Notes: generated by a model not told the origin, from the sequence alone. A stretch of 64,000 nt of DNA from Acidobacteriota bacterium (GCA_021161905.1 JAGGZT010000039.1:1-64000); one strand, 5' to 3'; shown: positions 4,608 through 43,305, counted from the stretch's first letter. Numbers and translations are program-made.

Positions 4608-7600
4608 CTTTCTTACCTCTCTTAATGGGAAGATATATAGTGAAGGTAGTCCCCTTACCTACCTCACTCTCTACCTCTATCCTCCCTTTATGGTGTTCCA
4701 CAATGCGATAAGCGATGCTCAAACCAAGGCCGGTGCCAATCTTACCTTTTTTGGTGGTAAAGAAGGGCTCGAAGATCCGGGGAATATGTTCGCGCGGTAT
4801 CCCTTTCCCCGTGTCCTTGACTTTCACTATTATCTCCTCCCCCTCTTTTCTGGTAATAATCGTTATAACACCTTTCTTTTCAATAGCTTGAGCTGAATTC
4901 ACCAGGAGGTTCATAAACACCTGGGATAACTCCCTTGGGTAACCTTTTATTTGAGGAAGCTCTCCATAATCCTTCACCACCTTTGCCTTATGTTCAATCT
5001 GATGCCAAACGAATTTTAAAGCAATGTCGATACATTCGTTGACAGAAAACATCTGAGGAGATTCCCTGGTCGGGGCGGCAAAGTTCCTCAATTCCCGCAC
5101 TACTTGACTGATGCGAGAAAGACCCTCTTTCGATTCGGAGACTACTTTGGGGAGGTCTTCCACGATAAAAGATATGTTCTTCTTTTTGAAGGAACGAACG
5201 AGCTCGGAAGAAAGAAGGAGAACCTTTTCCTTCTTATCAAGGTTATCCCGAAGTTCCTTTATTTTCGAGAAAAGCTCCCCAAGTTCGGAGACATATTCCT
5301 CTAAGCTATTGAAATTGCTCAAGACGAAACTTAAAGGGTTATTTATCTCATGGACGAGGCTGGCGGAAAGCTCCCCCAGCGACGCCATTTTCTCCGCCTG
5401 CTTTAATCTCTCCTCGAGCCTCTTTCTCTCAGTTATATCGATAAGAGAGGCAAGGAGCCTTTTTGTCCCCGGGATAAAACTACCATAAGCTCTCACTTCT
5501 CTTACCTCACCACTCGGGCGAACTACCCTTAATTCGATCTCCGGGGAAACCTTCTCCCCTCTCAACCTTGCCTTAAATCTCTTTCTCAACCTCTCTCTCT
5601 CTTCTGGAGGATGGATGTCGTAGAACTTCAATTTCCCTTCAATATCTTCCTTTCTCCTTCCACTAAGCTCCTCAAACCTCTTATTAACTAAATAATAGGT
5701 CCCGTCTGGTTCAATTACCGAGACCGCGGTACCGGAATACTCGAATAGGGTACGATACCGTTCCTCCGACTCCCGTAGTTTCTCCTCGAGCATCTTCTTC
5801 TCGGTGATATCCTTACTAATACCTGCTACTCCCACTATCTTCCCCTTGTGATCCCTAATCGGAGAAGAGGTCAGGATGACATTCCTTATTTTCCCAGATT
5901 TAGTAATCCTCTCTGTCTCAATATTTTTCAAAGGCTCTCCTGAGATTACCTTCTTGAACAGCTGGATTGCTCTCTCTAACTTCTCTTTGGGAAGCAATAT
6001 AGAAAAATGCTTACCCACCAGTTCTCCTCTACCATATTCATAAAGCTCCTCTGCTGCTGGATTTACATATTGGATAATCCCCTCGGTATCGGTTATCACT
6101 ACCGCCTCTGGAGTATTATCAAGCAGGCTGGTTAATCGCTCGTTTACCTCCCTTAGCTTTCGCTCAAGCTCCTCCTGTTCAGTAACATCCTCGCCAATAG
6201 AGAGAATCATCCTCTGCCTTCCCCCCTCATCCTTTATTACCGCGTTATGCCAAGAGATTAACCGTTCCTCTCCTTTCCTGGTTACAATCGGGTTCTTGAA
6301 TGTCGGGGGAAGAGCCACCAACTTAAGCCAGGAGAACACCTCGTAAACCCGGGTTCGCCATCGTTCAGGGAGAAAGATATCGAACCACTTCTTACCAATA
6401 ACCTCATCTCGATTGTACCCGGTTAACTCCTCACACTTCCGATTGAAGAGGACAATCTTTCCCTCAAGATCGAGCCCAACAATCAGAGCATTGGCTGTCT
6501 CAATGAGCCGTTCATTAAATGTCTTCTCTCTCTTCAGCTCAGCAAGGAGCTTCTCCCTTTCCGTTACATCACGGGCAATCCCCTGACTACCAATTATCTT
6601 CCCCTCCACCACCAGAGGGGAAGCGCTTATCTCAAGTGTCCTTACCTCTCCGTCCTTTCTTATTATCCTGATTGAATAGGTATGTTTTTCCCCACTGATG
6701 GTCTTCTTGAATTCGGAACGGGCTTTCTCTCTATCTTCTGGAAAAACCAACGGCAGGAACGGTTTTCCAATCATCTCCTCGCGACGATAACCGGAGATCT
6801 CCTCCGCCGCCTTATTGCCGTCGATAAACCTCCCGTCCCTATCCATCAGGTAAACCAAATCCTTAGCGTTCTCAAAGAGAGAGCGATAACGCATCTCCGA
6901 TTCCCTTAAGACGGAAAGCAGTTTTTCCCTCTCAGTCACATCACGGATCGAACCCTGTATCGCCAATCGCCCCTGATACATCACCGGCACTGAGGAAAGT
7001 TCAGCGATGAACTTACTTCCATCCTTCCGCTTCGCCCAAAAAGTGTACCTCGGCAGAACTCGCTCCCCTCGTTGTTTCCTCGTTGCTACCTCCTCCACCT
7101 TCCTAAGACTCTCCTCTGCTACCAGTTCTCGGTAATCACGACCTATAGCCTCGGAAGGCGAGGAAAAGCCGAAGATGCGACAGAACTCCTCATTCACATA
7201 GAGAAATCGATTATCTTGAATGATGTAGATACCATCCAGGGAGTGTTCTACCAAGTTGCGATATCTTTCCTCAGAGAGGAGAAATTCCTTGGTGCGCTCC
7301 TCCACCTTTTTTTCAACTTCAGCAAGATACTCAGCCATTTCCTTCTCCTGACGCAAACTATCGATCACCAACGCCAAATAAACAGCGATGGACTTGAAAA
7401 GGACCCTTCTCCTCGAAGTAACCTTGTAGCCACGGGAAAGACCAAAGAATAAAGCCCCCAAATTCTTATGGAAGGTGCTGAGAGGAGTAACCAGTAAGGA
7501 AGTTATCCCAACAGAGGATAAGAATTCACCACAAGAAGGAGGAAGTTCAGCAACCTGCAATCTTTTAAGTTCGCCTTCTTTAAAAAAGGCGCCTTCTATT

Positions 7601-34210: not shown

Positions 34211-34239
34211 TTGACTTAAAACGCCATTTCTTCTATCCT
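34211..34239 (+). promoter_or_regulatory. Sigma-70-like promoter for small membrane protein A
   Basis: TTGACT, 17-bp spacer, TATCCT. A start near 34246 places the in-frame ATG at 34243 outside the transcript and supports the ATG at 34261 as the true start. Confidence 0.5.
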
Positions 34240-34260
34240 TAAATGAAAGAGGAAGGGGTA

Positions 34261-34656
34261 ATGGATTTTCTTCGGCGACAAAAGGGGGCAATCCTTCTAA
34301 TTGCGTTTTCCTATCTCTTTTTCTACACCACATTTGACTTAGCCCATTACACCTTCCATTCCCTATTTGCTTTCGCCTCCTCCCCCCTTGTTGAAGACGA
34401 CATCTTCATCCATCAAACGCTTGTCCATGAAAGTGGGAAGAAGAGTATATCCCCTCCGCCCGTTGATGAGGGGGGGCTCGATTGCCCCTTTGCTCTTCTG
34501 ATAAATAACCTTTCCTCAAAAGTAGGAGCACCCACTCAATTTTTAGTTGAACTCAGCCTTATATCCTTCTTCAAACCACGGAAAGAAGCCCCGGTAATTG
34601 AGGAGATCGCCTCTCTCGCCATTCCCCGAGCCCCACCGACCATTTCCCTCCTTTAG
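34261..34656 (+). CDS. Small membrane protein A of the efflux cassette (DUF2946-like?)
   Basis: 131 residues from the ATG at 34261, chosen over 34243 because GAGGAAGG precedes it and the promoter lies too close to 34243. One N-terminal hydrophobic segment (LLIAFSYLFFYTTFDLAHYTFHSLF) contains a H-x3-F-H element, followed by SPLVEDDIF, a proline-rich stretch, DCPFALLINNLSSKVGAP, a KP dipeptide and a C-terminal RAPP. It is a clear paralog of the protein at 37132, with the same motifs in the same order. The layout resembles DUF2946-type proteins (N-terminal helix, Cys, C-terminal R-x-PP) often found beside metal efflux or TonB genes, but that assignment is tentative. Function unknown. Confidence 0.65.
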   Translation: MDFLRRQKGAILLIAFSYLFFYTTFDLAHYTFHSLFAFASSPLVEDDIFIHQTLVHESGKKSISPPPVDEGGLDCPFALLINNLSSKVGAPTQFLVELSLISFFKPRKEAPVIEEIASLAIPRAPPTISLL

Positions 34657-34685
34657 TTCGTTAGAGCGATTAGATCCAAAAAGAG

Positions 34686-34703
34686 TTATCTCGAGAGAGA
34701 TAA
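34686..34703 (+). promoter_or_regulatory. Perfect palindromic hairpin before the TonB receptor
   Basis: TTATCTC and GAGATAA flank a GAGA loop, 40 bp upstream of the receptor's start. It may be an operator or a weak attenuator (TTTATAT follows); which one cannot be decided by eye. Confidence 0.35.
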
Positions 34704-34742
34704 TTTATATCTCCATTTAAATCCTTATTGAGGAGGAGAAAG

Positions 34743-37025
34743 ATGCGAAGGTTTTCATATATATTCTTAATAACCTTGTTCATCTCGGCTATCTCTGGCA
34801 TTACCTTTGGAGATGAGATAAATGGAGAGGCCCTCACTAAAAAAAAGGACCCCATTTTCAGCCAAGGCAAGAAAAAGAGGAAAAGAGCAAGGAAAAGACT
34901 AAGAACAAGTACCTACGGAGCGATTAGGGGCTACATCCTCGACCCGGAGAAATCGGTTATTCCCGGCATTACTGTGACTTTAGAAAACCTGAAAACACAC
35001 CAGGTGATAACCGGGGTTACCAATGATCAAGGGGTGTACGAGTTTAGGATGCTCCCCTTTGGAAGATACCTCCTCCGAATCGAGGTTGAGGGCTTTAAAC
35101 CGATAAAGAAAAAAATAGAGATAAGCTCAACCACCCCCATCGAGCAGAACTTCCAATTGAAACTGGGGGAACTAAGTGAACAAATAGTGGTTACCGCCAC
35201 TAAGAGACCGGAGTTCTTGGACAATGTTCCTGTCCCTACCACGGTGATAAGCGATGATCTCATTAGGAAAAAGGCAGCGGAGAACCTCCTTGAGGCGATT
35301 AAGGGGACTTCGGGGATAAAGGTGCAGACGACCTGCTCCATCTGTAATGCGGCTGAGATAAGGGTTTACGGTTTGAGCGGAAGTCATGTTCAGTTACTCA
35401 TTGATGGGATGCCGGTTTATAGTGGATTGGCTACGGTTTACGGACTCTCGATGATCCCCACCGAGGATATTCAGCAGATAGAAGTGGTCAAGTCAGCCGG
35501 CTCCTCTCTCTACGGGAGCGATGCCTTGGTGGGGATGGTCAACATAGTGACCAAGCCGATAACCTCAAAACCGAGCTTCCACTTCAGCACCAAGTATGGA
35601 TCGTTCAACACCCAAGCCTACAATATGAGCCTAAGCGGAAAGTACAAGAGGATAGGAGGGAGGTTTACTTTTCAGCGAAACAGCTCCGACGGGATCGATA
35701 TTAACCACGATGGCATCTCCGACCAGGTGAGGTATGCCAGAAACACCTATTCAGCGAAGATAGGTCTGGATATCTCAAAAAGATATCAATCACAGCTTAC
35801 CTTCCACATAAACTACTATGACGAGAACCGTCTTGGGGGACCGAAGGGAAGTACCGGGGAAAACCCGGCAGCGATAACGGAGAACATCATTACCCATCGC
35901 ACCGAGCTCTTCGGAAACTGGAGCTTCAAGCCCGATGAAGCCTCGGATATCACCGTACGGGCAAACTGGTCGGAACATCATCAAAATGCCCTATACGAAC
36001 TGAACTGGTACCTCGCTACCGACACCCTGGGGGTCTTGGATGTTCAATACAACCGTTTCCTTTTGAAGCGCCACTTCATAACCGCGGGCTATATGTATAA
36101 AAAAGAGGAGATCGCCGAATCGAGGAGGTTCGGAAAAGCAGAGCTCGAACAGAGTGGAATCTACCTCCAAGATGAGATAAAGCTCACCGAAGACTTTTCC
36201 TTCCTCCTGGGCGGCCGTTACGACCATCACACCCAATTCGGGGATTACTTCAGCCCCCGAGGAAGCCTGATGTATAAACCAAACGATAAGATCACCATCC
36301 GCGCCTCCTTCGGTACCGGGTTCAAGGCTCCCGGGATCTTCTTTGAGGAGATGCATTATTGTCCTGGCGGTTTCCGCTATGAGGTGGTAAGAAACCCAAA
36401 CCTTCGTCCAGAAACCTCTCGTACCTACAATATTAACTTTGTCTATAAGGTTCCCAGGTTGCGGGCTGAATTCGCTCTCTTCCGTACCACGGTAAAGGAT
36501 ATGATCCAGGGAAAAATCATAGGCGAAGATGAGGCGATAAACAAGCTCGTCTATTCCTATGTCAATGTGGGCAAAGCAAGGGCACAGGGAGCGGAGTTCA
36601 TCCTTAGCGGAAGTCCCTTCTCCAACCTCTCCTTCTCCTTTGGCTACACCTTCCTTGACGCGATGGATTTGGCAGAAGGAAAACCACTCCCCTTCCGCTC
36701 CAAACACAGTGCCGACCTCAACATCACATATCGGAAAGCGGGTTGGGATATATTCTTAGAAGGAGAGCTGGTAGGGAGTATGCTCACCCAGGAGGTGCTC
36801 CGCACCGATGAAGGAGGGGAAATAGTAAGGGAATGGAGATCCCCTTCATATTCCATTTGGAACCTTCACCTTACGAGAAAGATCGGGAAGCACTATGAGC
36901 TCCGTTTTGGAGTGGATAACATCTTTGATTATGTCCAATGGGATGTAACTACTAAAGACACTGAATATGTCTGGGGACCACTCAGACCCAGGTTCCTCTT
37001 CGTCGGGGGAACGATCCATTTCTAA
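34743..37025 (+). CDS. TonB-dependent outer-membrane receptor with CarboxypepD-reg-like domain
   Basis: 760 residues from ATG 34743 (GGAGGAG upstream; TTG at 34728 lies inside that site). A signal peptide (about 1-23) is followed by a Lys/Arg-rich stretch (KKKRKRARKRLR), a carboxypeptidase-regulatory-like beta domain (about 55-140), a TonB-box-like EQIVVTATK and the plug (about 165-270), with IRVYGLSGSHVQLLIDGMPVYSGL and VVKSAGSSLYGSDALVGMVNIVTKP. A C-terminal beta barrel ends in the expected aromatic residue (GGTIHF). The plug carries Cys198-x2-Cys201 (TTCSICNAAEIR), a feature seen in some receptors near metal-efflux genes. The neighbouring CusABC-like genes suggest a metal or other small cationic substrate. 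The gene is closed by a strong terminator at 37053. Confidence 0.9.
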   Translation: MRRFSYIFLITLFISAISGITFGDEINGEALTKKKDPIFSQGKKKRKRARKRLRTSTYGAIRGYILDPEKSVIPGITVTLENLKTHQVITGVTNDQGVYEFRMLPFGRYLLRIEVEGFKPIKKKIEISSTTPIEQNFQLKLGELSEQIVVTATKRPEFLDNVPVPTTVISDDLIRKKAAENLLEAIKGTSGIKVQTTCSICNAAEIRVYGLSGSHVQLLIDGMPVYSGLATVYGLSMIPTEDIQQIEVVKSAGSSLYGSDALVGMVNIVTKPITSKPSFHFSTKYGSFNTQAYNMSLSGKYKRIGGRFTFQRNSSDGIDINHDGISDQVRYARNTYSAKIGLDISKRYQSQLTFHINYYDENRLGGPKGSTGENPAAITENIITHRTELFGNWSFKPDEASDITVRANWSEHHQNALYELNWYLATDTLGVLDVQYNRFLLKRHFITAGYMYKKEEIAESRRFGKAELEQSGIYLQDEIKLTEDFSFLLGGRYDHHTQFGDYFSPRGSLMYKPNDKITIRASFGTGFKAPGIFFEEMHYCPGGFRYEVVRNPNLRPETSRTYNINFVYKVPRLRAEFALFRTTVKDMIQGKIIGEDEAINKLVYSYVNVGKARAQGAEFILSGSPFSNLSFSFGYTFLDAMDLAEGKPLPFRSKHSADLNITYRKAGWDIFLEGELVGSMLTQEVLRTDEGGEIVREWRSPSYSIWNLHLTRKIGKHYELRFGVDNIFDYVQWDVTTKDTEYVWGPLRPRFLFVGGTIHF

Positions 37026-37052
37026 CTAAACCTCCCGCCTTACTAAAAAACT

Positions 37053-37080
37053 AAGAAGCCCCTTTAAGGGGTTTCTTTTT
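37053..37080 (+). terminator. Intrinsic terminator after the TonB receptor
   Basis: A GC-rich stem (AAGAAGCCCCT with AGGGGTTTCTT, including one G-T pair), a short TTA loop and a T-rich tail. It lies 28 bp after the stop codon. Confidence 0.75.
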
Positions 37081-37084
37081 CATA

Positions 37085-37113
37085 TTGACATCACTCCCCT
37101 CTTCGGATAAGGT
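37085..37113 (+). promoter_or_regulatory. Possible promoter for small membrane protein B and the efflux genes
   Basis: A perfect TTGACA directly after the terminator, with a poor -10 candidate (TAAGGT) 17 bp downstream. A promoter is expected here because the terminator separates this block from the TonB gene; an activator or an alternative -10 may be needed. Confidence 0.35.
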
Positions 37114-37131
37114 TAAGAGTTGGTATTCACT

Positions 37132-37554
37132 ATGGAACTGAAGAAATCGGGTAGGATATATCTTCTTGTCTTACTATTCTCCTCATACTACCTCTTCTTC
37201 TACGCCAACTATTCCCTCTTCCATGCCTACTTTCATCTAAGTGAACTAAGGGTCACCTCCCCTCTAACTGATGATCTTATCTTTGGAAGGGCATTTGTCC
37301 CTCCGCCAAAAGAAAGGATTATCTTAACCGATCTAACATCTGTTGGGGACCCAATAAGATGTCCCTTCGCTTTCCTTTTAAACAATTTAGTAACCAAACT
37401 TGGTGCTCCTCCCCTGCTTATAAACCACATTTTATGTAACGGTTTATTAAAACCGGAGAGGAGCACCCCCTTCCTATTATCATCTCAGCAATCCCCCATC
37501 AATTATCGGGCTCCTCCATCCTTTCCAATTTACTTCCAGACGACTTGCCTTTAA
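37132..37554 (+). CDS. Small membrane protein B, paralog of the protein at 34261
   Basis: 140 residues from the ATG at 37132; TTG at 37120 is in frame but less likely. It has the same plan as protein A: an N-terminal membrane helix (YLLVLLFSSYYLFFYANYSLFHAYFHL) with H-x3-F-H, SPLTDDLIF, a proline-rich stretch, RCPFAFLLNNLVTKLGAPPLL, a KP dipeptide and RAPP near the end. The C-P-F-A, NNL and K-x-GAP residues are identical in both. Orientation is not settled; the helix could be an uncleaved anchor with a periplasmic tail. It precedes the TolC-like gene by 61 bp. Function unknown, but the duplication on either side of the TonB gene implies a cassette role. Confidence 0.65.
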   Translation: MELKKSGRIYLLVLLFSSYYLFFYANYSLFHAYFHLSELRVTSPLTDDLIFGRAFVPPPKERIILTDLTSVGDPIRCPFAFLLNNLVTKLGAPPLLINHILCNGLLKPERSTPFLLSSQQSPINYRAPPSFPIYFQTTCL

Positions 37555-37615
37555 AATAAACAGCTTAAAGAAATGGGTCTTTATTTTCTGAACTTAAAGG
37601 CATAGGAGATAGCAT

Positions 37616-38851
37616 ATGGAGAAGAAGGTTGCCATTTTAGCTCTCCTTATTTCCCTATTGGCTTTACCCCCTCTATTGGCTGAGGAGCCGTTGACTTTAG
37701 ATCAAGCGGTGGCAATCGCCCTAAAGAAGAACCCCGATATCGCTGCTGCCCTCAAGAGGTACGAAGCGGCAAAGGCGAGGATCAAACAGGCGAAGGCATT
37801 TTCTGAGCCAGAGATCTACTACGAGAGCGATTTTCTCCCCCGGTTTTATCAACCCAAGGAAGCAGGGGAAACCCTGATGGGGATAACCCAAACCATCGAA
37901 TTCCCGGGCAAGAGGATCATCCGGGGAAAAGCAGCCACTGCGGATGCGGAAGTGGTGAAGAAGGACTATGAGGCACTCAAGAGGGAGCTCATTGCCGGGG
38001 TAAAAACTGCCTTTTACCGTATCCTCTTCGCCGAAGAGGAGGTAAGGTATGCCCAGGAGAACCTGAAGCTGGCTCGGGATTTCCTCCGGATGGCGAAGCT
38101 CCGCTTCGAAGCGGGATCGGTAGCCAAGTTCGAGGTGCTACGGGCAAGGGTGGAGGAGGCTAAAGCGAGGAATGAACTGAAGGTAGCGGAGAACGATCTC
38201 GCTCTTGCCAAGGCGGAACTCAATTTCCTCCTCGCCCGAGATATGAACGCCCCACTCAGCGTCGCCGGTGAGCTTAAAGCAAAAAGGATCAAATATACCC
38301 TAAGCGAACTAACCCAAAGAGCCTACCTTGTTCGGCCCGAGATCCAGGGGCTCCAATTTGCCATAAAGAGGGAGGAATATACAAAATCACTTGCCAAGAT
38401 GAGCTACCTTCCCGATTTCTCCCTTAGGATAGGTAGTCATAGGGTCCTCGGGGAGCGGAACTACTGGGATGTCGAGTTTGGGTTAAACATCCCTCTTTTC
38501 TTCTGGCAAAAACAACAAGGGGAGATAGCGGAGGCGAACGCCAATCTCCAATCGCTCCTTTCAGAACTCCAATCAACCAAGAACCGGATATCGCTCGAGG
38601 TAAGGAACGCCTACCTCAATGTGATGGCGCTTTCCGAACGGATCAAGCTCTATAAAAGGGAAATCCTGGTTGAGGCAGAGGAGGTTTACCGAATCGCCAT
38701 CAGAAGTTACGAGGAAGGAGAGGTAGGGAACCTTGAGGTACTCGAAGCAAGAAGGACCCTCATCGGGGCAAAGATCTCCTATGCTCAGGTCCTCTTTGAA
38801 TACAATGCCGCCTTAGCTGAGCTTGAAAAGGCGGTGGGTGAAAGCCTGTAG
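37616..38851 (+). CDS. Outer-membrane efflux channel, TolC/CusC/CzcC family
   Basis: 411 residues with a signal peptide (VAILALLISLLALPPLLAEE) and the two long alpha-helical repeats typical of the family (LDQAVAIALKKNPDIAAALKRYEAAKARIKQAKAF, and YRIAIRSYEEGEVGNLEVLEARRTLIGAKISY near the end). No lipobox is seen, unlike CusC. It forms the exit duct of the tripartite pump with the MFP and RND proteins downstream. The end overlaps the ribosome site of the next gene, so it is co-transcribed. Confidence 0.92.
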   Translation: MEKKVAILALLISLLALPPLLAEEPLTLDQAVAIALKKNPDIAAALKRYEAAKARIKQAKAFSEPEIYYESDFLPRFYQPKEAGETLMGITQTIEFPGKRIIRGKAATADAEVVKKDYEALKRELIAGVKTAFYRILFAEEEVRYAQENLKLARDFLRMAKLRFEAGSVAKFEVLRARVEEAKARNELKVAENDLALAKAELNFLLARDMNAPLSVAGELKAKRIKYTLSELTQRAYLVRPEIQGLQFAIKREEYTKSLAKMSYLPDFSLRIGSHRVLGERNYWDVEFGLNIPLFFWQKQQGEIAEANANLQSLLSELQSTKNRISLEVRNAYLNVMALSERIKLYKREILVEAEEVYRIAIRSYEEGEVGNLEVLEARRTLIGAKISYAQVLFEYNAALAELEKAVGESL

Positions 38852-38864
38852 GAGGCTAAACAAG

Positions 38865-40151
38865 ATGAAAAAAACGATCATTATCATCGGCGTTTCCTCC
38901 TTTTTTCTCTTAACCATTTTACTTCTTCCTCCCAGTCTTATCGCCTGCAAGGGAGGAAAAACGACCAACTCCTCCTCCACCTTAAAAGCAGGTACCGCTG
39001 GAGGGAAAACTGAGCTTGGGAAAGGATGGAGAAAACGCATAAGAAAAAGGGGAGGAAGATTTCAGGGAAAGGATGGGAATAAAGAAGCCATAGAAACCGT
39101 TGAGCTATCCAGCGAAGCAGTAAAATTACTCGAGATAAAGGTTGCTAAAGCGGAAATAAGGGACATCTCCGATGTAATCACCGCCCCAGGGAAGATAGCT
39201 GCCGATCAGAACAGGATCGCGGTTATCGGTCCCATCTTTGAGGGAAGGATCTACAAGATATTTGTAAATCCAGGGGATTGGGTAAAAAAGGGAGCCCCAC
39301 TGGTCATTTTGGAAAGCCCTGAGGTGGCAACTGCTAAATCGGACTTCTATAAGGCTTATGCTGCAATGGAGCTCGCCAAGATAAATTACGAGCGGGAAAA
39401 AAGACTTTTTGCCGAACATATAACCCCGAAAAAGAGGCTCCTCGATGCAGAAGCCCAATACAAGATAGCCCAAGCCAATCTGGAGGCAGCGGAGAAAACC
39501 CTCCATGTGATGGGGTTCACCGAAGACGATGTAGCCTTACTCAAGAGGGAGCATAAGGTTAACCCGGTGATCACCCTCCGCTCCCCCATTCCGGGAAAGG
39601 TGGTGAAGCGGAACGCTATCTTAGGAGCGTTGGTAGCGGAAAAGGATGACCTCTTCACCATAATGGATACCAGCGAGGTCTGGGTGGATGCCCAGGTATA
39701 TGAGAAGGACCTTGCCCAAGTAAAGCTTGGAGGGAGGGTAGAGGTAACGGTTACCCCTTATCCAGATAAAGTCTTTAGGGGAAAAGTGATCTATATCAGC
39801 GACCTGATCAATAACGAAACGAGAACCGCTACCGTGCGCACCGTGGTTAAGAACCAGGATGGGCTACTCAAGGTCGATATGTTCGCTACCGTGCGGATCA
39901 TCACTAACGAAGGGGTAAAAGGGCTTGCCGTCCCCAAATCAGCCATTGTGGATGAAAAGGGGAGAAAATTCATCTTCGTCAAGGAGAAGGGGCACTTTCG
40001 CCGGGTACCAGTGGTTCTGGGGCAAGGGAATTCCAAACTCGTGGAGATAAGAAGAGGGCTCAAAGAGGGAGATCTGGTGGTAGTGGATGGTGCTACGCAA
40101 CTTGAAGCAGAACTTCTCAAAAAGAAGACCAAGGTGGAAATACACTACTGA
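38865..40151 (+). CDS. RND efflux periplasmic adaptor, CusB/CzcB-like
   Basis: 428 residues from ATG 38865 (TAGGAGG upstream; the longer frame begins inside the TolC gene). The N-terminus has a hydrophobic segment ending in LIAC, a good lipobox. A basic linker (KGWRKRIRKRGGRF) follows, then the adaptor core: a lipoyl half-motif (VIGPIFEGRIYKIFVNPGDWVKKGAPLVILESPEV), an alpha hairpin (about 155-235), a beta barrel (TIMDTSEVWVDAQVYEKDLAQVKLGG) and a C-terminal RRVPVVLG/VEIRRGLKEGDLVVVDGA segment. It connects the RND pump to the TolC-like channel. Confidence 0.92.
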   Translation: MKKTIIIIGVSSFFLLTILLLPPSLIACKGGKTTNSSSTLKAGTAGGKTELGKGWRKRIRKRGGRFQGKDGNKEAIETVELSSEAVKLLEIKVAKAEIRDISDVITAPGKIAADQNRIAVIGPIFEGRIYKIFVNPGDWVKKGAPLVILESPEVATAKSDFYKAYAAMELAKINYEREKRLFAEHITPKKRLLDAEAQYKIAQANLEAAEKTLHVMGFTEDDVALLKREHKVNPVITLRSPIPGKVVKRNAILGALVAEKDDLFTIMDTSEVWVDAQVYEKDLAQVKLGGRVEVTVTPYPDKVFRGKVIYISDLINNETRTATVRTVVKNQDGLLKVDMFATVRIITNEGVKGLAVPKSAIVDEKGRKFIFVKEKGHFRRVPVVLGQGNSKLVEIRRGLKEGDLVVVDGATQLEAELLKKKTKVEIHY

Positions 40152-40173
40152 TCCCTAATTGAGGAGAACCAAA

Positions 40174-43100
40174 ATGATCAACTGGCTTATTGAGAAGTCA
40201 GTCAAAAACCCGGTACTTACCATCTTTCTCACTATTCTCATCTGCGTTATCGGTGCCTTCCTCTTCCGCCTCCTTCCGGTTGATGTCTATCCTGACCTCA
40301 ACGCTCCATTGGTCAATATAATCACCGAATGCCCAGGTATGGCGCCTCAGGATGTGGAGCGAAGCGTCACCTATCCCATCGAGAGTATGATGAACGGTGC
40401 TCCCCATGTGATCAATGTTCGCTCCGAAACCTCGATTGGGATCTCGATAGTTACCGTAGAGTTCGACTGGGGGACCAATGTCTACCGTGCCCGACAGATC
40501 GTCTCAAGTAGGCTGGAGCTCATCTCCGACCAGCTACCTGAGGGGACTTCCCGCCCTATGCTCGGTCCTATCTCCTCCAGAATGGGTGAAGTGATGCAAT
40601 TCATCGTATATGGGGAGGGGGTGAGCCAGCTTGAGCTCAGGGATGTCGCCGATTGGGTGATAAGATATCGCCTTCTCGGGGTCCCCGGTGTCGCCTATCT
40701 CACCAACCAAGGGGGCTACATAAAACAGTTCAATGTATATCTCGACCCCTATGCCCTAAGGAGCTATCACCTCACTATAAGGGATATCAAAGAGGCGCTC
40801 GAGCGGAGCAACTTCAACCCCTCTGGAGGCCTTCTGATTAGCAAGGAAAGGGAGTACATCATCCGGGGTTTGGGCAGGATACACAACATCGAGGATATCA
40901 AGAACACGGTCATCACCTCAAGAAACGGGGTACCGGTTCGAATAAAGGATGTCGCTGAGGTCAAGATAGGTCATCCAGTGCGCCGGGGTGATTCCAGCCA
41001 GGACGGAGAAGACTGTGTCACCGCTACCTTAGAGAAGCAGTATGGAGGGAATACCCTCGCCACCATCGCCAGGGTAAAAAAAGTTCTTGCTGAACTGACA
41101 AAAGGACTTCCCGAAAGGATCCACATAAAAACGGTTTATGACCAATCGATCCTCATCTGGGAGGCAATCCATAATGTTGAACGCTCCATCCTTGAAGGAG
41201 CGATTCTGGTGGTGATCGTGATCCTCTTCTTTATGGGAAACACAAGAAGTGCCCTTATCACCTCATTGACCATCCCCTTCTCCATACTCGTTGCCATAAT
41301 CCTGATGTACCTCGGCGGCATCTCAATAAATGTTATGTCCTTAGGTGGCTTAGCGCTCGGCATTGGAAAGCTTGCCAACTCCTCAATCATTATGGTGGAG
41401 AACATCTATCGGATGCTCCTCAAGGAGAAAGGGAAGAGGAGCCGGCTCGATATCACCTTGGAGGCGGCAAAGGAGGTGGGTCCCCAGATCTTCTCTGCCT
41501 CGTTGATAATCGTCCTCGCCTTCGTCCCCCTCTTCTTTATGGGCGGACTTTCCGGAAGGATGTTTGCCCCAACCGCTTTCACTATAGCTGCGGTTATGAT
41601 CGGAGGGCTCTTCTGCTCTCTAACCCTGAAACCGGTCCTTTGCGCTCTTGCCCTTACCGAAAAGTCAATACCCGACAAGGAGAATCGGTTATTTCAGCTC
41701 TCTCAGAGAGCCTTTCTCCCCATCTTCAGATATTGTCGTCATCACCGGGCAAAGACGATCGGAATCACCGTAGCGGGGCTCATCATCACCATCATCCTTA
41801 CCCCTTACCTCGGGCGGGAGTTTCTCCCTCGGCTCGATGAAAGTGCACTCCTTATAAGCACCCAGCTCCGTCCCGGAACATCCCTCGCGGAGACAGCAAG
41901 GATCGGCAAAAAGGTAGAAAGGACCCTTCTGACCATACCCGAGGTGGTGACGGTGAATAGAACCTCCGGAATGCCTGAGGAATCGGAACACTTCCATCCG
42001 GTGAGCCACTCCGAGTTCTTGGTAAATCTACTTCCAAAGGAGAAGAGACATCGTTCGCTTGACGCCATCATCGAAGAGGTGAGACACAAATTGGACCAGT
42101 TCCCGGGGATGTACTACCTCATAGAACAGCCGATCCAGAACAAATTCAACGAGATGGTTAAAGGAACGATCGGTGATGTAGCGGTCAAGTTATTCGGTCC
42201 TGACCTCAAGGTCCTGAACGAAAAGATAGAGGAGATAAAAAATGTAATGGCAGGGGTCCCCGGTGTTGCCGATCTTGAGGTGGAGCAGACTGCAGGGATC
42301 CCCCAGATAAGCATCAGGCTCGATAGGGGAAAGCTCGCCAGATACGGGCTCAACATAGGGGATGTCGCCGATGTGATGGAGACGGCTCTAAATGGAATAA
42401 AGGCAACGGACATCTTCCAGGGGAACCGAAAATATACCCTCTTCCTCCGCCTCCCCGAAAGATATCGAAACAACCTCGAGACAATAGAAAACCTACTCCT
42501 TGACACCCCAAACGGAGGACAGGTGCCCTTAAAGGAGGTAGCTACAATCAGCCTTACCGAGGGACCTTCCACAATAATGCGGGAGAATGTTACCAGAAGA
42601 AGGGTGGTGCTATGTAATGTCCGAGGACGCGATACGGGTAAATTCGTAGAGGATGTAAAGAAAGCACTTGCGGAGAAGGTGAAATTACCAGCCGGCTATT
42701 ACATCCAGTTCGGAGGGCAATACGAGGATCAGCAACAGGCAGTACACCAGCTTGCGATTATGGGGGTAGTAGTCGCCTTGGTGGTCTTCATTATCCTCTT
42801 CTCCACCTTCGGCTCGGTAAGTCAGGCGTTTCTCATCATCCTGAACATCCCATTTGCCCTTATGGGAGGAATCATCGCCCTATTCATCGGGCATCAGACG
42901 CTCAATGTCTCCTCCCTCATCGGGTTGATCGCCCTCTTCGGTATCTCGGTCCAGAACGGGCTCATCCTCATCGCCTATATCAATGAGCTGAGAAGAAACG
43001 GAACCCCCCTTCATCAGGCGGTGGTTGAGGGGTCGCTGGTTAGATTGAGACCGATATTGATGACCGCCTTGGTGATGAGCATCGGCGTCCTTCCTCTGGT

Positions 43101-43248
43101 AATAGCCAGAGGAACCGGTGCTGAGATCCATAGACCACTTGCCATCGTCTACATCGGTGGGCTCATCATCTCTACCTTTGTCACTATGATCTTCCTCCCC
43201 ATCCTCTACGAGATGCTGGAGGGCTGGAAGGAAAGAAGAAGAGCATAA
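40174..43248 (+). CDS. Heavy-metal-type RND efflux pump (CusA/CzcA-like) lacking the TM4 acid
   Basis: 1024 residues from ATG 40174 (GAGGAG upstream). The RND fold is complete: TM1 at about 15-35, two periplasmic porter domains and a 12-TM layout. HME-type hallmarks are NGAPHVINVRSETSIGISIVTVEFDWGTNVYRARQIV, GISVQNGLILIAYINELRRNG and RLRPILMTALVMSIGVLPLVIARGTGAEIHRPLA. In TM4 the usual acidic residue(s) (Asp in CusA; DD in AcrB; two Asp in CzcA) are replaced: GLALGIGKLANSSIIMVEN has Asn402-Ser403, and only Glu409 remains. Substrate and energy coupling are therefore uncertain. It follows the adaptor by 22 bp and is closed by a terminator at 43271. Confidence 0.9.
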   Translation: MINWLIEKSVKNPVLTIFLTILICVIGAFLFRLLPVDVYPDLNAPLVNIITECPGMAPQDVERSVTYPIESMMNGAPHVINVRSETSIGISIVTVEFDWGTNVYRARQIVSSRLELISDQLPEGTSRPMLGPISSRMGEVMQFIVYGEGVSQLELRDVADWVIRYRLLGVPGVAYLTNQGGYIKQFNVYLDPYALRSYHLTIRDIKEALERSNFNPSGGLLISKEREYIIRGLGRIHNIEDIKNTVITSRNGVPVRIKDVAEVKIGHPVRRGDSSQDGEDCVTATLEKQYGGNTLATIARVKKVLAELTKGLPERIHIKTVYDQSILIWEAIHNVERSILEGAILVVIVILFFMGNTRSALITSLTIPFSILVAIILMYLGGISINVMSLGGLALGIGKLANSSIIMVENIYRMLLKEKGKRSRLDITLEAAKEVGPQIFSASLIIVLAFVPLFFMGGLSGRMFAPTAFTIAAVMIGGLFCSLTLKPVLCALALTEKSIPDKENRLFQLSQRAFLPIFRYCRHHRAKTIGITVAGLIITIILTPYLGREFLPRLDESALLISTQLRPGTSLAETARIGKKVERTLLTIPEVVTVNRTSGMPEESEHFHPVSHSEFLVNLLPKEKRHRSLDAIIEEVRHKLDQFPGMYYLIEQPIQNKFNEMVKGTIGDVAVKLFGPDLKVLNEKIEEIKNVMAGVPGVADLEVEQTAGIPQISIRLDRGKLARYGLNIGDVADVMETALNGIKATDIFQGNRKYTLFLRLPERYRNNLETIENLLLDTPNGGQVPLKEVATISLTEGPSTIMRENVTRRRVVLCNVRGRDTGKFVEDVKKALAEKVKLPAGYYIQFGGQYEDQQQAVHQLAIMGVVVALVVFIILFSTFGSVSQAFLIILNIPFALMGGIIALFIGHQTLNVSSLIGLIALFGISVQNGLILIAYINELRRNGTPLHQAVVEGSLVRLRPILMTALVMSIGVLPLVIARGTGAEIHRPLAIVYIGGLIISTFVTMIFLPILYEMLEGWKERRRA

Positions 43249-43270
43249 ATAGATCAAAGAAAAATAACAG

Positions 43271-43305
43271 GGCTCCCTTTGAGACGAAGGGAGCCTCTTA
43301 TTTTG
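43271..43305 (+). terminator. Intrinsic terminator, possibly bidirectional
   Basis: A 9-bp stem GGCTCCCTT/AAGGGAGCC (43271-43295) with a TGAGACG loop and TCTTATTTT after it. The other side has TGTTATTTTT on the minus strand, so it could also end the convergent gene at 43316. Confidence 0.75.

Follow-up and report, generated by a model that had tools for sequence, protein, structure and literature searches.

Paralogous candidate metal-sensing leader ORFs ahead of a TonB-dependent transporter and a heavy-metal RND exporter in an Acidobacteriota bacterium

Two homologous small ORFs, A and B, stand in front of a metal importer-type and a metal exporter-type gene set, respectively, and by their anatomy they are most likely metal-sensing leader ORFs of the CruR/CutF (DUF2946) type; most likely, they are not membrane companions of the transporters. 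They lie at positions 34211-43305 of a 64,000-nt stretch of DNA from Acidobacteriota bacterium (GCA_021161905.1 JAGGZT010000039.1:1-64000), the whole of which is called the window here. We consider it quite probable that A and B act in cis and encode exported nascent peptides that arrest their own translation and sense metal, in the manner of CruR and CutF. This reading rests on the anatomy of the two ORFs, their homology to each other, a fixed spacing between a Cys residue and a RAPP motif, the position ahead of genes for a TonB-dependent transporter (TBDT) or an RND system, the recurrence of the composite locus, and predicted RNA structure; on these grounds we infer stalling, metal binding, regulation, and the sign of regulation in the two units. 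The paired import/export module is new relative to the published cases. So far, metal-sensing arrest peptides comprise two worked cases, both from Proteobacteria and with opposite effects of copper. Two paralogous leaders, one before an importer and one before an exporter, offer a natural paired experiment on how a single type of sensor leads to different outputs.

All genes of the locus are on the plus strand, and the gene order and shared direction given in the preliminary description (A, TBDT, terminator, B, TolC-like channel, CusB-like adaptor, CusA-like pump, terminator) were confirmed. Its view that these genes form one efflux cassette was not retained, because an intrinsic terminator with an 11-pair stem and a T tail (37053-37077) divides the locus into two transcription units. 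Unit A begins with a sigma-70-like promoter at 34211-34239 (TTGACT-17-TATCCT, with the -10 element ending at 34239), which scored 9/12 in the consensus scan and is a consensus match only. When promoter and ribosome-binding sites were read, the start of ORF A was placed probably at the ATG at 34261, which is preceded by AGGAAGGGG, rather than at 34243 as in the ORF list; leader A (34261-34656) is accordingly 131 aa long. The TBDT follows at 34743-37025, with a probable ATG start at 34743, a CarboxypepD_reg domain, and a Pfam/NCBIfam domain match to PF00593 (2e-60). For unit B, a possible promoter with a perfect -35 and a weak -10 element (TTGACA-17-TAAGGT, 37085-37113) was read from the sequence and was not picked up by the consensus scan. 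Leader B (140 aa, 37132-37554) starts at about the ATG at 37132, the ORF list having 37120, and is followed by the TolC/OEP outer-membrane channel (37616-38851; OEP match, 8e-63), the CusB/CzcB-like periplasmic adaptor (38868-40151; CusB/HlyD_D23 match, 2e-59), the CusA/CzcA-family pump (40174-43248), and an intrinsic terminator with a 12-pair stem (43270-43296). The pump was assigned to the heavy-metal RND pumps by TIGR00914 (CusA/CzcA) with 949.9 bits against a curated cut-off of 701.45.

A and B had been described as duplicated small membrane proteins. Their homology was evident (32% identity over 130 aa, E 1e-15), and each has a single N-terminal hydrophobic segment, for which the 19-residue hydropathy maximum was 1.7 in A and 1.4 in B, values consistent, by hydropathy, with an export signal or membrane segment. 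What had been missed is the C-terminus, where both ORFs end with RAPP and a short tail: A carries a hydrophobic N-terminus, HxxxH, CPFA (34483-34494), and RAPP (34627-34638) five residues before the stop, and B shows the same anatomy with CPFA at 37360-37371 and RAPP at 37507-37518, eleven residues before the stop. From the single Cys of each CPFA motif to the Arg of RAPP, there are 48 residues in A and 49 in B. Among the 211 window ORFs of at least 60 aa, R[AGSP]PP within the last 20 residues was found in A and B and otherwise only in an ORF that runs antisense to a RibD-like gene.

This anatomy resembles that of CruR (bp2923) in the BfrG/CrtA system of Bordetella pertussis, a leader ORF ahead of a TBDT (PMC9426467, PMC12914433). 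CruR has CxxC at 90-93, which is needed for copper control, and RAPP at 139-142, so that C90 and R139 are 49 residues apart (PMC9426467). Like CruR, A and B are small, putatively exported leaders with a Cys about 49 residues before a C-terminal RAPP, and A lies directly ahead of a TBDT with a spacer between them; RAPP has been characterised as an arrest motif and its structures are known, RSPP is permissive in part, and arrest by CruR has been demonstrated in vitro (PMC10951233, PMC12992588). Unlike A and B, CruR has CxxC, belongs to DUF2946, acts through Rho, and is found in a single unit with a PepSY gene and no RND unit, whereas A and B have one Cys and no Pfam match, a predicted helix that buries the Shine-Dalgarno (SD) sequence in unit A, and a second copy ahead of an exporter. 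The layout resembles CutF-CutO of Rhodobacter capsulatus more loosely: CutF is likewise an exported leader with a Cys motif, a proline-rich C-terminus, and a stem-loop over the SD of the next gene, but it has CxxxC and controls a multicopper oxidase, and copper was proposed to prolong its stall (PMC9973294). For CutF-like genes, the commonest neighbour is the OEP of RND systems, and TonB-like genes are among the next (PMC9973294); the text consulted mentions no tandem import/export pair for them. SecM, ApdA/ApdP, and other RAPP-type peptides also have a C-terminal RAPP-like motif, and SecM arrest exposes the start signal of the next gene (PMC10951233, PMC12992588), although SecM and ApdA/ApdP are linked to protein localisation machinery and not to a conserved Cys and metal-transport genes. 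In Caulobacter crescentus, DUF2946 genes occur both in an RND efflux operon (CC2720 in czrCBA) and in a cluster with a TBDT (CC1775, with CC1778), as in the window; these two loci are, however, unlinked and in a zinc/Zur context, and leader function was not examined there (PMC4176598). The preliminary description had named no comparable system. In view of CruR (PMC9426467), the CutF-like genes (PMC9973294), and the Caulobacter DUF2946 genes (PMC4176598), this does not hold for the single leaders; for the pair of leaders over import and export genes it does, since none of the papers found describes one.

Subsequently, the family membership of A and B was examined. As in the CruR/CutF type, both have the C-terminal RAPP/RxPP arrest motif and open a unit in which a metal-homeostasis gene follows, and CPFA, with the first Cys retained, is found in place of CxxC or CxxxC. 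Neither matched DUF2946 (PF11162) up to E 1, and direct searches of Pfam and NCBIfam with A and B gave no family, although several of their relatives match PF11162 at or near the cut-off. Because a profile built from A and B only (A1) had no matches in 149 and in 396 genomes, the search profile was widened with leaders found by position; the resulting A3 profile consists of A, B, and nine leaders found in relatives via PF11162 and TBDT searches, and it was run against 396 genomes from the phylum, as well as 142 from one of its classes. When a profile of the 67 other leaders was made without A and B, A ranked first of 371 frames with a marginal E of 0.006, and B was not significant (E 1.1); the hhalign probability of A/B against the other leaders was 18%, and BLAST of A or B against the leader of L037, a genome of the same order, was not significant. 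Since the profile match is only marginal for A and lacks significance for B, their placement in the leader family rests on anatomy, spacing, and position.

The survey yielded 69 tabulated leaders, A and B included, of which 51 directly precede a TBDT, 17 precede TolC-CusB-CusA, and 1 sits at a contig end (67, 50, and 16 without A and B for the total and the first two classes). Four further matches, outside the 69, have other or unclassified genes downstream. The spacing from Cys to RAPP in other genomes was 44-51 residues, mostly 47-48. The neighbours of A/B-like proteins, which the preliminary description had proposed to inspect, were therefore consistently TonB or RND genes (51/69 and 17/69), and these counts, together with the recurrence of the full composite locus in L231 and L232, support its link between import and export and its term "constant companions". 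When the search was started from the pump, nine further genomes of the pump's clade (51-54% identical) were obtained, and an RxPP leader was directly upstream in 6 of the 6 newly read loci with a visible TolC; one clade locus (L268) had neither TolC nor leader. A leader with CPFC and RAPP also precedes the 55% identical TBDT of G002, which belongs to the order of the window, and CABWKN010000118.1 is a same-order contig from the TBDT-based search. That contig search mostly returned Bacteroidota receptors without an RxPP leader; hence, the leader is not a fixed companion of the whole TBDT family. A small His-rich ORF with a RAPP end was also observed upstream of a related TBDT on an Ignavibacteriales contig (L090:1829-2182).

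A constant neighbourhood would also be expected if A and B were exported as mature proteins and lent physical help to the TBDT and the RND pump, for example as metallochaperones or assembly factors. With CusF, a cus operon already offers an example of a small metal protein, and the hydrophobic N-terminus and conserved His and Cys residues of A and B fit such a role. Nevertheless, conservation is strongest in the arrest motif and in the constant spacing between it and the Cys, the last codons take part in RNA pairing, and neither CruR nor CutF was detected as a stable mature protein (PMC9426467, PMC9973294), which makes this alternative very unlikely. The idea that A and B are membrane partners of the receptor or pump was likewise not supported, CruR and the CutF-like genes being described as regulatory leader ORFs.

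As cis-acting leaders, A and B would work as follows. Ribosomes translating either ORF would stall with the two prolines of RAPP in the P and A sites. The conserved Cys would by then be some 50 residues away from the peptidyl-transferase centre and, like the N-terminal His residues, would have just left the exit tunnel; binding of metal to the emerging chain, or export of the chain, would then alter the stall. The Pro-Pro codons of the leaders favour CCT (46/68 against a background of 39%, p 3e-6, phylogeny not corrected). The minimum-free-energy fold of unit A predicts an 11-bp helix (34643-34741) in which the final codons of leader A (34643-34653, UUUCCCUCCUU) pair with the SD stretch of the TBDT (34730-34741); its z was -2.2, with 3 of 200 shuffles equally stable, and its 5' arm begins 10 nt past the stall codon. 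With the P site at the first Pro codon (34633) and a footprint of 15-17 nt downstream, a stalled ribosome is predicted to cover about half of this arm. Arrest on A would therefore permit synthesis of the importer, as the ribosome would cover part of the arm that hides the TBDT start signal when no ribosome is stalled there, and relief of the arrest by metal would shut the importer off. Across 43 importer units, burial of the SD exceeded that in shuffles (p 0.004), and so did its release upon masking at the stall site (p 0.0005), whereas neither effect was significant in 16 exporter units (p 0.14 and 0.40); these tests treat loci as independent, which phylogenetically they are not fully, and the effects are modest. 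Accordingly, an SD switch common to all exporter units was unsupported.

In unit B, the same kind of sensor would stand ahead of the exporter with a different spacer. The spacers of the two classes differ in structure (median z -1.77 in importer and -0.21 in exporter units, p 0.001). Under stall masking, the predicted SD accessibility rose from 0.01 to 0.15 in unit A and fell from 0.26 to 0.04 in unit B; the effects are thus indeed opposite at the window locus only, and the decrease in unit B does not generalise over other exporter units. It is conceivable, though we regard it as doubtful, that the importer and the exporter of the same metal are driven with opposite sign by one leader sensor cassette whose copies are homogenised within the genome, in that the stall would open the importer's start signal and the exporter's spacer would turn release of the stall into expression. 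If so, ribosome arrest would be enough to set paired import and export, and no metal-responsive repressor would take part. Somewhat better placed, and still tentative, is Rho-dependent attenuation of both units as reported for CruR (PMC9426467): a stalled ribosome would shield the transcript and, upon its release, Rho would terminate in the spacer, so that both units would share the sign of response unless the effect of metal on the stall were reversed. Rho is encoded in the genome of the window, and the spacers of the exporter units contain little G (median 6-7%, with C at 24%) and little structure (median z about -0.2 to -0.3), which suits Rho loading. The importer-unit spacers are, on the other hand, structured (median z about -1.8) with a buried SD, which a pure Rho mechanism does not need, and the B spacer of the window is less G-poor (16% G).

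The complete composite locus, leader-TBDT-leader-TolC-CusB-CusA, was found in two genomes of another class (L231 and L232, in the order TBDT-leader-TBDT-leader-TolC-CusB-CusA), and partial forms were found in several more: leader-TBDT-leader at a contig end (L243), leader-TBDT-other gene-leader-TolC-CusB (L240), and TBDT-leader-TolC-CusB-CusA (L246, L249, and L254, among others). In a tree of 39 leaders, A grouped with B (97/91) and the two L231 leaders grouped together (95/87), and the leaders switched between a position before a TBDT and one before RND genes at least 4 times on supported branches; long branches (A, L037) make single placements unsure. Between the two L231 leaders (2089-2370 and 4939-5217), DNA identity is 87% from about codon 9 through the final base of the stop codon, and the sequences are diverged outside the ORF, whereas the same leaders are 68% identical between L231 and L232. 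Two leaders of one genome that are so alike over almost exactly the ORF are new relative to the published cases. The simplest reading of this pair is that the ORF by itself was copied or converted, and a likeness confined to the ORF suggests that both units retain one and the same sensor.

CxxC was present in all 67 other leaders first tabulated, and A and B have CPFA. Three further leaders of the same pump clade (L269, L271, and L272) have CPAG with the first Cys exactly 48 residues before the Arg; A and B are thus not the sole single-Cys leaders, and the first Cys is the invariant part, because these CPAG leaders keep it at 48 residues. Leaders keeping one Cys (A, B, and these three) are new relative to the published cases. 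In CruR, C90S+C93S kept expression and largely lost copper control, both Cys residues being changed together (PMC9426467). This result, with CPFA in place of CxxC, would agree with a loss of metal sensing in A and B, whose stall would then be constitutive or depend on export status, as in SecM. The recurrence of the single-Cys form with that very Cys retained argues against such a loss, and the N-terminal His residues could supply ligands; we therefore regard it as unlikely and keep to metal-sensing leaders, in which one Cys poses the question of the minimal metal site.

Finally, the pump and the metal were considered. Unit B is like the heavy-metal RND systems CusCBA/CzcCBA in its TolC-CusB-CusA order and in exceeding the TIGR00914 cut-off. 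It is unlike them in having Asn at D405, Ser/His/Glu at the Met triad, and a leader ORF in front, and in lacking CusF. When aligned to E. coli CusA, all clade members including the window pump carry Asn at D405 and Lys at 402 (N405/K402), and Ser/His/Glu occupies the Met triad wherever the columns are present (motif SEHxHPVxHS). Such pumps were seen in the window (40174-43248), L201, L231, L232, L249, L250, L254, and L259-L266, whereas the TM4 Asp is retained in other RND pumps of these genomes. D405 of CusA is this TM4 Asp, a proton-relay residue needed for proton coupling. A clade with Asn at the proton-relay position and Ser/His/Glu at the copper Met triad is new relative to the published cases, and the absence of the Asp raises the question of the energy source. 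The triad M573/M623/M672 that marks the CusA Cu(I)/Ag(I) class is absent from the window pump; because Ser/His/Glu is found there instead, Cu(I) as the pump substrate, and copper as the metal, were unsupported. Genes for a ZIP zinc transporter and MerC directly follow some TBDTs that stand behind leaders (L172:5094-5843; L173:5236-5685), and Caulobacter czrCBA, which contains a DUF2946 gene, is induced by Zn (PMC4176598); hence, zinc or a similar divalent metal is a fair, if weak, guess.

Elsewhere in the same genome, outside the window, another CusA-like gene (G000:C53:30931-33413) is split into frames with an internal TAG and lies beside split CusB pieces; it is probably a decayed pump operon or an assembly error. 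In the TBDT, a plug-domain CxxCN motif at residues 198-202 (window 35334-35348) was invariant in the window protein and nine relatives, and is possibly a metal site.
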